Positions 9,751 through 12,518 of a DNA stretch of 12,518 bases are shown here, piece by piece. The DNA is from an uncultured Granulicatella sp. (lineage in GTDB: Bacteria > Bacillota > Bacilli > Lactobacillales > Aerococcaceae): contig CALATC010000125.1 of the NCBI GenBank assembly GCA_937891475.1, positions 1 through 12,518 of the forward strand. The letters are read 5' to 3'. The position numbers and the translations under genes are program-made. The first letter of the stretch is position 1, and each line of letters begins with the position of its first letter. The notes under the pieces are model-generated. The model was not told the origin of the DNA. It saw only the letters and a list, made by a program, of their open reading frames with translations, and did not search any database.

Positions 9751-10608
9751 TTAAGCTTTACCAGTTGAACCGAAGATATCCATTGTTTCTTTAGTGATTT
9801 TAACAATTGCATCAAAACCAGGTTTGATGATTTTACGTGGGTCATAAACTTCAGCGTCTGCATTTAATTTAGCACGAACTGCTGCAGTCCATTGTTGTTG
9901 TAATTCAGTGTTAACATTGATTTTAGCATGTCCACGTTCGATTGCTTTTTTGATTTGATATTCTGGAATACCTGATCCACCGTGTAATACTAATGGAGCA
10001 CCAGTAGCTTCAGAAATAGCTAACATTTCGTCAAATCCTAATACAGGTTCACCTGCATAAGTTCCGTGAACTGAACCTAAAGCTGCTGCTAAAGCATCAA
10101 TACCTGCTTCTTTAACCATACGTTCACATTCGTGTAAGTCAGCATATTTAATTCCGCCTGTTACGCCATCTTCAGTACCACCTACAGTACCTACTTCAGC
10201 TTCTACAGAAACACCTTTTGGATGTGCATAAGCTACAACTTCTTTAGATAATTCAATGTTTTCATCAATTGGATAATGAGAGTGGTCAAACATTACTGAG
10301 CTGAAACCAGCATCAATATATTTTTTACATACATCTACAGATGAACCATGGTCTAAGTGTAATGCAACTGGGACTGTGATATCCATAGTTTCTAATAATG
10401 CATTTACCATAGCTGCAACTACTAATGGGCCACCCATGTATTTACCAGCACCTTCAGATACTCCTAAGATGATTGGTGATTTTGCTTCTTGAGCAGCAGT
10501 TAGAACAGCTTGTGTCCATTCTAAGTTATTGATGTTGAATTGACCTACGGCATATTTACCTTCTTTAGCTTTGTTCAACATTTCTGTCATACTTACTAAA
10601 CGACTCAT
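9751..10608 (-). CDS. fba: class II fructose-1,6-bisphosphate aldolase
   Basis: This 285-residue zinc aldolase interconverts fructose-1,6-bisphosphate with dihydroxyacetone phosphate and glyceraldehyde-3-phosphate in glycolysis. Visible: [13 protein letters not shown] (19-31), the catalytic/zinc motif HLDHGSS (Asp86, His87), [11 protein letters not shown] (134-144), zinc ligands in GSVHGTY (His181) and VLHGGSGIP (His209), and the phosphate-binding KINVNTE (229-235). The C-terminus FGSTGKA is typical, and length is normal for the Bacillus-type subfamily. ATG 10606-10608 follows AAGGAGG (10618-10624). Codon use is very biased, as for an abundant glycolytic enzyme. The gene is monocistronic and divergent from the CapA-like gene. 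Confidence 0.98.
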
Positions 10609-10624
10609 TTAAAATTTCCTCCTT

Positions 10625-10642
10625 ATACTAGTTTCCTAGTAT
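10625..10642 (-). other. 5' UTR hairpin of fba mRNA
   Basis: A 7-bp perfect stem ATACTAG/CTAGTAT closed by a GAAA tetraloop lies directly against the SD AAGGAGG and within about 10 bases of the predicted transcript start (near 10652). Such 5' hairpins can shield mRNAs from 5'-end-dependent decay. The structure is seen; the stabilising role is inferred. Confidence 0.6.
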
Positions 10643-10658
10643 TTATTTTTACGTTGCT

Positions 10659-10687
10659 ATTATACCCCAAAATTCGTTCGATAGCTA
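10659..10687 (-). promoter_or_regulatory. promoter of fba
   Basis: Minus strand: perfect -10 TATAAT (10659-10664) preceded by GGGG, with a 17-base spacer to a weak -35 TAGCTA (10682-10687). The poor -35 suggests help from an activator or the A+T-rich upstream DNA, where a palindrome lies. Confidence 0.65.
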
Positions 10688-10702
10688 GTTATTTAGAATA
10701 TT

Positions 10703-10723
10703 ATTATGAAATAATTTCATAAT
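10703..10723. promoter_or_regulatory. 21-bp perfect palindrome upstream of the fba promoter
   Basis: Arms ATTATGAAAT and ATTTCATAAT flank a single A. Further partial copies of the arm follow on the plus strand (TTTTCATAAT 10733-10742, ATTTCATA 10743-10750). It ends 15 bases upstream of the fba -35, a position fitting an activator or a shared site for the divergent genes. It resembles a Rex box but has one base too many in the spacer and lacks the G/C pairs, so I name no protein. Confidence 0.55.
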
Positions 10724-10772
10724 CTATTTTTCTTTTCATAATATTTCATATATTATCATTTCAATAAATATA

Positions 10773-10802
10773 AGAATTTTCTTAGAATTTTTATAGAAAT
10801 TT
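10773..10802 (+). repeat. three 11-bp-spaced AGAATTTT repeats before the CapA-like gene
   Basis: AGAATTTT starts at 10773 and 10784 and AGAAATTTT at 10795, an exact 11-base period, ending about 14 bases before the -10 box. Such in-phase repeats over a weak -35 are typical of activator (for example response-regulator) sites, and phased A/T tracts also bend DNA. Confidence 0.5.
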
Positions 10803-10821
10803 TCCTAATTTGTTTTATAAT
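10793..10821 (+). promoter_or_regulatory. promoter of the CapA-like gene
   Basis: A perfect -10 TATAAT lies at 10816-10821; the sequence 17 bases upstream (ATAGAA, 10793-10798) is a poor -35. The RBS GGGAGGG (10842-10848) and ATG 10855-10857 follow. Confidence 0.6.
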
Positions 10822-10854
10822 AGTGATAGTATAAACAATTTGGGAGGGATTAAT

Positions 10855-12108
10855 ATGAACCAACGTCAAAACAGTTCATATCATAAACGTGCAGTTAGAG
10901 AAGCACGTTTCGCAAAACTATTATTTGCTTTTATCGCAATAGCCTCACTCGCTATTGTCATTTTCATTTTAAATATTCCATCAATTATTAATAATGAAAA
11001 TAAGCTATTAACTAAAAATGTATCTACAAATCAGCAAAGTTCTTCAACCGCTTCAGAAGATAAGGAAGTCCATACCGCTAGAATTACAGCTAGTGGAGAT
11101 ATGCTATATCATGACATTGTTTATGGAAGTGCCTTTGATGGACAAAACTATGATTTCAAAAATGATTACGAGCAAATTACTCCACTCGTTTCTTCAGCTG
11201 ATTTAGCTCTTGGAGACTTTGAAGGTACGATTAATCCAGATAGACCTTTAGCCGGCTATCCGATTTTTAATGCCCCTGAAGAAGTTGTTCAAAGTATTAA
11301 AGATGCTGGATATGATGTTTTAGACTTAGCTCATAATCATATTTTAGATACAGGAATTAGTGGATTAAAATATACAGCTACAGCTTTTAGAAATGCCGGT
11401 TTAGATATTTTCGGAGTAAAGGTAGATCCAAATGAAGGAATTTTAGTCAAAGAAGTAAACGAGATTAAGGTCGCTATTTTAGGATTTTCATACGGATTCA
11501 ACGGAATTGAAGCAAGTATTTCTAAAGAAGATTACGATAATCATTTATATGACTTAAACATGGATAAAGTAAAAGAGCAAATTGAAAAAGCTGAACAAAT
11601 CGCTGATTTTACAATCATTATGCCTCAGATGGGAGTAGAATATCAGTTAACACCAACTGACGCTCAAGTCGACACTTATCATAAAATGATTGAATGGGGA
11701 GCAGATGTTGTATTTGGAGGGCATCCTCACGTTGCTGAACCTACTGAAACTATCGAAAAAGATGGGCAAAAGAAATTCATCATTTATTCAATGGGGAACT
11801 TACTATCTAACCAAAGAATTGAAACATTAGATAAAATTTGGACAGAACGTGGCGTTATTATGGATATTACGATTCAAAAAGAAGGCAAACAAACGACCTT
11901 AACAAGTGTACAAGCACATCCAACATGGGTTTCTCGTACTCCAATTAATCGTACATTCCAAGGCTATCAAGCATACGATTATCAAGTATTCTTAGCAGAA
12001 GATTATTTACCAGGTGCAAAATACGCCAATACCGTAGATGAAACAACACGACAACGAATTGAAAAAGCCTATCATGAAATGTTAGAGTTACTGAATATTC
12101 AATTCTAA
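10855..12108 (+). CDS. membrane-anchored CapA/PGA_cap-family metallophosphoesterase-like protein
   Basis: This 417-residue protein has a basic cytoplasmic N-terminus (1-21), one membrane helix (about 22-43), a Ser/Thr-rich linker (about 55-70) and an outside PGA_cap domain (about 74-360). Family motifs are GDM (81-83), GDFEGT (120-125), NAPEE (139-143), LAHNH (158-162), GVEY (260-263), GGHPHV (288-293) and YSMGN (311-315). CapA/PgsA proteins act in poly-gamma-glutamate synthesis, but no pgsB/pgsC-like ligase is nearby, so it is probably a stand-alone envelope protein of unknown substrate. Before GVEY it reads MPQMG where many members have HWG. ATG 10855-10857 has a strong RBS; a 15-codon longer frame would begin inside the promoter. 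It is monocistronic and convergent with the dlt operon. Confidence 0.9.
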   Translation: MNQRQNSSYHKRAVREARFAKLLFAFIAIASLAIVIFILNIPSIINNENKLLTKNVSTNQQSSSTASEDKEVHTARITASGDMLYHDIVYGSAFDGQNYDFKNDYEQITPLVSSADLALGDFEGTINPDRPLAGYPIFNAPEEVVQSIKDAGYDVLDLAHNHILDTGISGLKYTATAFRNAGLDIFGVKVDPNEGILVKEVNEIKVAILGFSYGFNGIEASISKEDYDNHLYDLNMDKVKEQIEKAEQIADFTIIMPQMGVEYQLTPTDAQVDTYHKMIEWGADVVFGGHPHVAEPTETIEKDGQKKFIIYSMGNLLSNQRIETLDKIWTERGVIMDITIQKEGKQTTLTSVQAHPTWVSRTPINRTFQGYQAYDYQVFLAEDYLPGAKYANTVDETTRQRIEKAYHEMLELLNIQF

Positions 12109-12111
12109 AAC

Positions 12112-12143
12112 AAAAACCACACGACAAAAATCGTGTGGTTTTT
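12112..12143. terminator. bidirectional terminator between CapA-like gene and dlt operon
   Basis: A 13-bp stem AAAAACCACACGA/TCGTGTGGTTTTT with a 6-base loop has T runs on both strands. It starts 3 bases after the CapA-like stop and lies 8 bases beyond the DltX-like stop, so it can end transcripts from both sides. Confidence 0.93.
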
Positions 12144-12151
12144 TATATTCT

Positions 12152-12310
12152 TTAAAAAGCACTGTAGACAAATTCTGCTACATTTGAAAAATCTGCATGG
12201 AGTAAATATAAGCCTAACACAAGAAACAAAACATAAAATGCCATTGTCCATACAAATAGTTCATGCTTCTCACTAATTTTTTTGATAGAATTTATACATT
12301 TCTTCAGCAA
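12152..12310 (-). CDS. DltX-like small membrane protein at the 3' end of the dlt operon
   Basis: This 52-residue peptide has a basic N-terminus (LKKCINSIKKISEK), one membrane helix at about 19-38 (FVWTMAFYVLFLVLGLYLL) and a short outside tail ending exactly in FVYSAF, which fits the C-terminal FxYxxF signature of DltX. DltX (about 50 residues, single TM) takes part in D-alanylation of lipoteichoic acid with DltB and DltD, and its C-terminal Tyr has been proposed to carry D-Ala. Position is odd: it overlaps the end of dltD by 38 bases, while dltX usually precedes dltA. The start is uncertain; TTG 12308-12310 has AAGGA about 10 bases upstream and gives the family's usual size. Earlier in-frame ATGs lack an RBS. 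Confidence 0.7.
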   Translation of the reverse strand: MLKKCINSIKKISEKHELFVWTMAFYVLFLVLGLYLLHADFSNVAEFVYSAF

Positions 12311-12518
12311 CTTCAGGCCATCCTTTCCATCCAGGGTGAACCGTATCATACATAACATAAGGTTCATATTCCTTTGGTGTTAAATCCATAAGTTTATATC
12401 CATATGAATTAGTAATTTCTGCTAACTTTTTAGAGTAAACCTCTCTTTGATCTTTACCAATACCAATATAATCATACCAACGTCCATTAATTGGGAAATT
12501 AACGACTTCTACTTCTAA
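12273..12518 (-). CDS. dltD: DltD, D-alanyl transfer protein (C-terminal 81 residues)
   Basis: The window holds only the C-terminal 81 residues, in frame from the right edge to TAG at 12273-12275. Signature segments are PINGRWYDYIG, KLMDLTPKEYEPY and DTVHPGWKGW; the last holds the Asp and His of the DltD catalytic site. DltD is a membrane-anchored, outward-facing SGNH-like enzyme that helps load D-alanine onto lipoteichoic acid. It is normally the last gene of dltXABCD; here a DltX-like gene follows and overlaps it. The rest of the operon lies beyond the right edge. Confidence 0.93.
   Translation of the reverse strand, partial: LEVEVVNFPINGRWYDYIGIGKDQREVYSKKLAEITNSYGYKLMDLTPKEYEPYVMYDTVHPGWKGWPEVAEEMYKFYQKN

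Follow-up and report, generated by a model that had tools for sequence, protein, structure and literature searches.

A microprotein gene overlapping the 3' end of dltD

The window (the whole 12,518-nt stretch of DNA that was analysed) ends in the 3' part of dltD, which is followed and overlapped on the same strand by a small open reading frame (Table 1). The product of this frame, LLKKCINSIKKISEKHELFVWTMAFYVLFLVLGLYLLHADFSNVAEFVYSAF, is a microprotein of 52 residues that begins with a lysine-rich, basic segment, continues with a single long hydrophobic stretch and terminates in FVYSAF. A preliminary description of the locus had proposed such a peptide with a single transmembrane-like segment and a 38-base overlap with dltD, and these features were all borne out, on the minus strand. 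AlphaFold2, run on an alignment of 42 family members, modelled one helix over residues 3-51 (mean pLDDT 76, pTM 0.43), and the microprotein is predicted to span the membrane via this single helix. The motif tyrosine and the final phenylalanine are invariant in 42/42 members of the family. The 81-residue fragment of DltD matched PF04914 (2.1e-26) and TIGR04092 (4.5e-32, a match below the full-length cut-off of TIGR04092).

The terminator that had been noted after the reading frame was also found, as a hairpin located between dltX and a convergent plus-strand gene ending at 12108. Because this hairpin was called for the plus strand only, its role as a terminator of dltX is proposed tentatively. 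By eye, the convergent gene past the hairpin is CapA-like. Rfam returned no match at the gathering threshold in positions 10600-12518.

Table 1. Features at the dltD-dltX end of the window
Feature	Positions	Strand	Details
dltX-like gene	12152..12310	minus	TTG start 12310-12308, TAA stop 12154-12152, 52 codons; kept in relatives
dltD 3' end	12273..12518	minus	81 codons plus stop (12275-12273); gene extends past the window edge; PF04914, TIGR04092
dltD/dltX overlap	12273..12310	minus	38 bases, out of frame
Hydrophobic stretch codons	12197..12259	minus	residues ~18-38, limits by eye
FVYSAF codons	12155..12172	minus	FxYxxF acyl-shuttle motif with Tyr49, from sequence; motif kept in relatives
Shine-Dalgarno-like AAAGGATGG before TTG	12318..12326	minus	inside DltD codons for G-W-K-G-W (12332-12318)
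Terminator-like hairpin	12112..12143		called on the plus strand only; 1 found versus 0.2 expected in shuffles

Conservation of the microprotein gene

Of the copies in the two nearest genomes covered, the open reading frame is 98% identical to that of Granulicatella elegans (G001), whose frame reads identically to that of the window, and 94% identical to that of G002. Outside the overlap, the 38 codons compared between the window and G. elegans contain 7 synonymous differences and no non-synonymous ones, and comparison with G002 gives 8.5 synonymous and 3.5 non-synonymous differences; a mean pN/pS of 0.04 was obtained for 18 distinct streptococcal copies. The microprotein overlaps dltD in G. 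elegans (also by 38 bases), in G002, in both copies of G003, in G031 and in G048 (Allofustis). Two further genomes possess the gene as an orphan with an ATG start, dltD being located elsewhere: in G006 it follows a ptsI-like gene (L062:5084-5287), and in G004 it lies at a contig end (L057:6556-6708) with the same downstream neighbours as in G006.

In a hand-chosen sample of 17 genomes, which included all seven genomes already known to match the microprotein, dltD was present in seven and exactly those seven carry the microprotein; the remaining ten presented no microprotein match below E 0.01. A family-wide search yielded matches at E<=0.01 in 8 of 76 genomes, six of which were rows of the query alignment and one of which (G061, 1.1e-21) was new. 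The match in G072 (E 0.0047) was set aside as chance. Finally, a hydrophobic stretch combined with a C-terminal [FY]xYxx[FY] was found in 88 of the 4942 forward open frames with 35 or more codons at 80 dltD loci, and 87 of these 88 frames occupy dltX positions beside dltD or dltA, with one located elsewhere. Because the frame is conserved beside dltD, has undergone almost only synonymous change and persists as an orphan away from dltD, it is not a product of chance. Judged from sequence, the dltX-like frame is a conserved gene under selection.

Start codon and embedded Shine-Dalgarno-like site

A TTG is found at the same position in the window, G001, G002, both G003 copies, G031 and 20 streptococcal loci, and this conservation among relatives makes TTG the probable start codon of dltX; Allofustis (G048) and clostridia present ATG instead. 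Among 57 loci with a microprotein 3' of dltD, 54 have an ATG (32) or a TTG (22) located 20-80 bases upstream of the dltD end, the exceptions being L115, L117 and L118. In every one of these 54, the overlapping start stands in the same frame relative to dltD.

The start is preceded by AAAGGA or AAGGGG within the K-G-W codons of DltD (G-W-K-G-W in the window), and AAAGGATGG may be used as the ribosome-binding site. Among clostridial and Allofustis dltD genes, AAAGGA was found in 15/29 overlapped versus 4/21 non-overlapped genes (p 0.037) and, across all rows, in 37/52 versus 4/21 (p 6.6e-5), both by Fisher tests uncorrected for relatedness. AAGG itself was found in 29/29 overlapped clostridial and Allofustis genes versus 18/21 non-overlapped ones. 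Because a Lys-Gly pair can hardly be encoded without AAGG, the weak excess of AAAGGA fails as a sign of selection for a ribosome-binding site. The embedded site is altered in the genomes where dltX has left dltD, with GWKSW (G006) and GWKAW (G004) replacing GWKGW, which amounts to two cases only.

Relationship to canonical DltX

The Pfam DltX profile (PF12459, gathering cut-off 25 bits) did not match the 52-residue product, as it should have done under the simplest form of the proposal that this is a DltX, and it did not match the G001 or G002 copies at E<=1. NCBIfam gave no match above chance for the window protein, and a search of solved structures returned only weak unrelated matches and no solved relative. 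Across the family, however, PF12459 matched 21 of the 42 members at E<=1 (best 1.6e-7) versus at most two members for any other family. One 3' gene, that of Clostridium thailandense, exceeds the cut-off with 30 bits, and the Allofustis copy, at 21.3 bits, falls under it.

Alignments were then compared with hhalign. The alignment of the 3' type (A3) comprised 42 sequences, excluding L115 and L118, which have no usable start, and near-identical streptococci; the canonical set comprised 23 DltX sequences after L004-L007 and L010 were dropped, these having no forward frame. The whole 3' set matched canonical DltX with a score of 45.0 (E 2.2e-10), against maxima of 14.9 when all columns were shuffled and 35.3 when they were shuffled in blocks of 8 (100 shuffles each). 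Ten Granulicatella, Abiotrophia and streptococcal rows gave a score of 42.5 (E 2e-9), against maxima of 17.3 and 38.2, respectively (100 shuffles each). Shuffling in blocks of 8 preserves hydropathy and much of the motif, and the proximity of the block-shuffled maximum to the real subset score (38.2 versus 42.5) indicates that part of the score reflects motif and hydropathy.

The reverse search, in which the 3' profile was run against 249 Bacilli genomes, yielded 27 matches in 24 genomes: 17 are motif-ended frames of 45-66 codons directly upstream of dltA, i.e., canonical dltX, two are of the 3' type (G001, G482) and eight are neither. Matches inside long frames were set aside as chance. Run against 243 genomes from the class to which Clostridium oryzae belongs, the same profile gave 18 matches, of which five are dltX genes beside dltD, eight are C-terminal tails of 497-540-codon frames with similarity to MBOAT proteins and five are neither DltX nor MBOAT. 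The eight MBOAT-like clostridial frames (L157, L159-L163, L168, L170) end in FIYNQF or FIYSQF.

The profile-profile match, the relatives that match PF12459 and the recovery of canonical dltX by the reverse search outweigh the failed single-sequence match, and the assignment of a DltX-like gene to the 3' end of the operon therefore stands. These similarities make it likely that the microprotein shares common ancestry with canonical DltX, although not beyond doubt because the proteins are short.

Record searches, which reach only proteins sharing short exact words, agree in part with the suggestion that the gene is easy to miss in annotation. The window protein matched one record, of 41 residues, and the profile added one of 92 residues (75% identical to the window protein); in total, the profile search returned 63 proteins, mostly unnamed or hypothetical, among which a Lachnobacterium record carries a UniRef name beginning with D-Ala-teichoic. 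Its out-of-frame overlap with the dltD end makes the gene easy to overlook, and Granulicatella and clostridial operons may appear to lack DltX.

Operon layout across dltD loci

The G. elegans genome presents the order dltA-B-C-D-X. Both there and in G002 the microprotein is the sole DltX-like candidate: no second dltX was found with PF12459 at E<=1, each genome yielded a single family match, and the additional dltX that might have been expected at the 5' end of the operon or elsewhere was not found in G001. Since dltA-B-C lie outside the window, its operon was read from G001, which shares 22% of sampled words with it and is 90% complete, and is probably dltABCDX as well. In these assignments dltB and dltC were recognised from inspection by eye and their similarity to one another across loci, and dltA additionally by TIGR01734, DltA falling below the TIGR01734 cut-off in all 17 chosen genomes. 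In G003, one locus reads dltA-dltB-dltC-dltB2-dltD-dltX (L055:2047-7586) and in another (L056) ptsH- and ptsI-like genes precede a second dltD-dltX; both dltX copies are of the 3' type.

We surveyed the best 80 of 145 dltD loci from named genomes. The microprotein is located 3' of dltD in 57 and only 5' of dltA in 21 (Bacillus and relatives, Staphylococcus), and two loci present it at neither position: L065, which probably corresponds to G004, a genome with dltX at another site, and L114, where the microprotein accompanies an inverted dltD nearby. L065 and L066, titled Carnobacterium maltaromaticum 757_CMAL and Streptococcus sp. 263_SSPC, are probably mislabelled and probably correspond to G004 and G003, both of the window's genus.

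In a clostridial sample, DltD was detected in 23 of 393 genomes at 24 loci (L212, L217 and L219 duplicate genomes or operons already in the first survey), and all 24 loci present exactly one forward frame ending in [FYW]xYxx[FY], with no hydropathy filter applied. This frame lies just after dltD in 22 loci, 15 of which continue with dltA (D-X-A) and seven of which follow dltC-dltD; L207 and L220, with the microprotein upstream of dltD, represent a further layout. The loci are short, so that the D-X-A layout is seen only as D-X-A. None of the 15 D-X-A microproteins was matched by the A3 profile at E<=0.001, with seven of the 15 genomes lying in its sample, and their assignment rests on motif, length, by-eye hydrophobicity and position. 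In Romboutsia and Paraclostridium, the microprotein of this type is annotated 'hypothetical protein'.

By sequence comparison, the ABCDX layout of Granulicatella is shared with clostridia. The orders XABCD, ABCDX and D-X-A(BC) can be read as a single circular order in different rotations, which tandem duplication and loss could produce. These results suggest that operon layouts are circular permutations and that a 'missing' dltX often represents an annotation gap, and the presence of the microprotein beside dltD at 24/24 sampled clostridial DltD loci points to a general three-part shuttle.

Origin of the operon

Midpoint-rooted trees of DltA and DltB were built with at most eight streptococcal and at most eight Bacilli rows per group, short proteins being dropped. 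DltA placed Granulicatella, Abiotrophia and Allofustis together with the ABCDX operons of clostridia (33 rows, 100/96), apart from a group made up of the canonical Bacilli, lactic and streptococcal operons (26 rows, 100/98). For DltB, Granulicatella belongs to a group of 46 rows (100/100). The Granulicatella operon is accordingly placed, by these phylogenies, with the clostridial type, and transfer of the operon between lineages is plausible.

The 3' position does not define a single clade, because L102 and L123 (Clostridium) fall outside the ABCDX group in both trees and L113 and L116 fall outside it in the DltB tree. These four 3' dltX operons, from Clostridium and a Peptococcaceae bacterium, have a DltB nearer to the canonical Bacilli side.

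Oral streptococci with two types of DltX

Twenty streptococcal loci (oralis, mitis, infantis, peroris, pseudopneumoniae and other species) carry a Granulicatella-type dltB-dltD-dltX cassette (e.g., L067:4801-7291 and L083:4809-7291), one of them truncated at the 5' end and another in which the dltB match is broken. In none of the 20 loci did dltA or dltC give a match beside the cassette upstream. A canonical dltX-A-B-D follows the cassette in nine; in the other 11, it was not found within the stretch covered. Canonical DltX above the Pfam cut-off was detected in 7/7 cassette-bearing streptococcal genomes scanned. In the DltB tree, the accessory streptococcal protein clusters with the second copy of G003 (100/99). 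No report of dlt duplication in Streptococcus mitis was found in the literature searched.

We suggest, as a speculative model that is less probable than not, that DltB, DltD and DltX of the clostridial type together make up a mobile module for acyl transfer that is complete in itself, with DltX starting inside dltD behind a ribosome-binding site in the K-G-W codons, and that the streptococcal copy of this module, which travels with neither dltA nor dltC, borrows D-Ala-DltC beside the canonical machine and modifies a different polymer or place. Streptococci with both DltX types permit a direct test of whether the trios are interchangeable.

Proposed function and alternative explanations

The reading that best explains our results (probability about 0.92) is that the microprotein is a divergent DltX, the acyl-tyrosine shuttle of the machinery for teichoic-acid D-alanylation, and that its gene closes a dltABCDX operon of clostridial type in a bacterium resembling G. 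elegans. Passages of PMC12148441 and PMC11035591 describe DltB transferring D-alanine from DltC to the tyrosine of the C-terminal motif of DltX, which passes it to DltD. By analogy with this published biochemistry, the helix would sit in the membrane together with DltB and DltD, DltB would load Tyr49 with D-alanine taken from DltC, and the C-terminus would hand the D-alanine over to the DltD serine, which would pass it on to lipoteichoic acid. With less confidence, translation from the TTG, directed by a ribosome-binding site in the GWKGW codons of DltD, might couple dltX to dltD.

The preliminary description had offered two readings of this position: a relocation of dltX to the 3' end in this lineage, or a second DltX-type carrier. 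A local 5' to 3' move of dltX within an otherwise ordinary Bacilli dltXABCD operon agrees with the detection of canonical DltX above the Pfam cut-off in 16/24 sampled same-order genomes of other families versus 0/36 in the window's family. However, DltA (100/96) and DltB (100/100) place Granulicatella, Abiotrophia and Allofustis with the dltABCDX operons of clostridia and away from the canonical ones of Bacilli and streptococci, which means that the whole operon type differs; relocation is therefore not the best reading and seems improbable. A second carrier alongside canonical dltX in the same genome does describe oral streptococci, which have both types, but not G. elegans: G001 and G002 have no PF12459 match at E<=1 and one family match each, and the two copies of G003 are of the same type. 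For the window's lineage we consider this explanation highly improbable.

It is also conceivable, but quite unlikely, that the microprotein joins or regulates DltB and DltD without carrying an acyl group. Binding of DltB and DltD belongs to the role of DltX as presented in passages of PMC12148441, and PMC11035591, in the part concerned, still terms the actual role of DltX unclear; yet a pure scaffold need not preserve the motif tyrosine and last phenylalanine found in every family member. A spurious ORF, read out of frame across the dltD end, would fit the short length, non-ATG start, overlap and absence of a direct profile match, but copies that persist away from dltD, mostly synonymous change and the near confinement of the motif to dltX positions (87/88) make this explanation the most implausible of all. 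The divergent DltX of a clostridial-type operon thus remains our preferred reading.

Comparison with known systems

Canonical DltX (PF12459; DUF3687 in the passages of PMC5541007 considered) of Bacillus, Staphylococcus and Streptococcus resembles the window protein in its ~50 residues, basic N-terminus, one helix, FxYxxF motif and dlt linkage. In contrast, the window gene lies after and overlaps dltD instead of preceding dltA, where dltX is placed in passages of PMC5541007 and PMC10903887; it also starts with TTG and remains below the Pfam cut-off. No report of a 3' dltX was found in the literature searched, part of it as excerpts and subscription journals mostly outside it. In the passages considered of PMC10642750, the Clostridioides difficile operon is treated as dltDABC (DltA-D) and DltX is not mentioned. 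Our D-X-A loci, sampled from other clostridia, place a DltX-like ORF between dltD and dltA. Finally, the FxYxxF C-terminus is shared with the acyl-shuttle tails fused to MBOAT proteins, such as PatA (passages of PMC12148441), whereas the version in the window is a separate microprotein encoded beside dltD.
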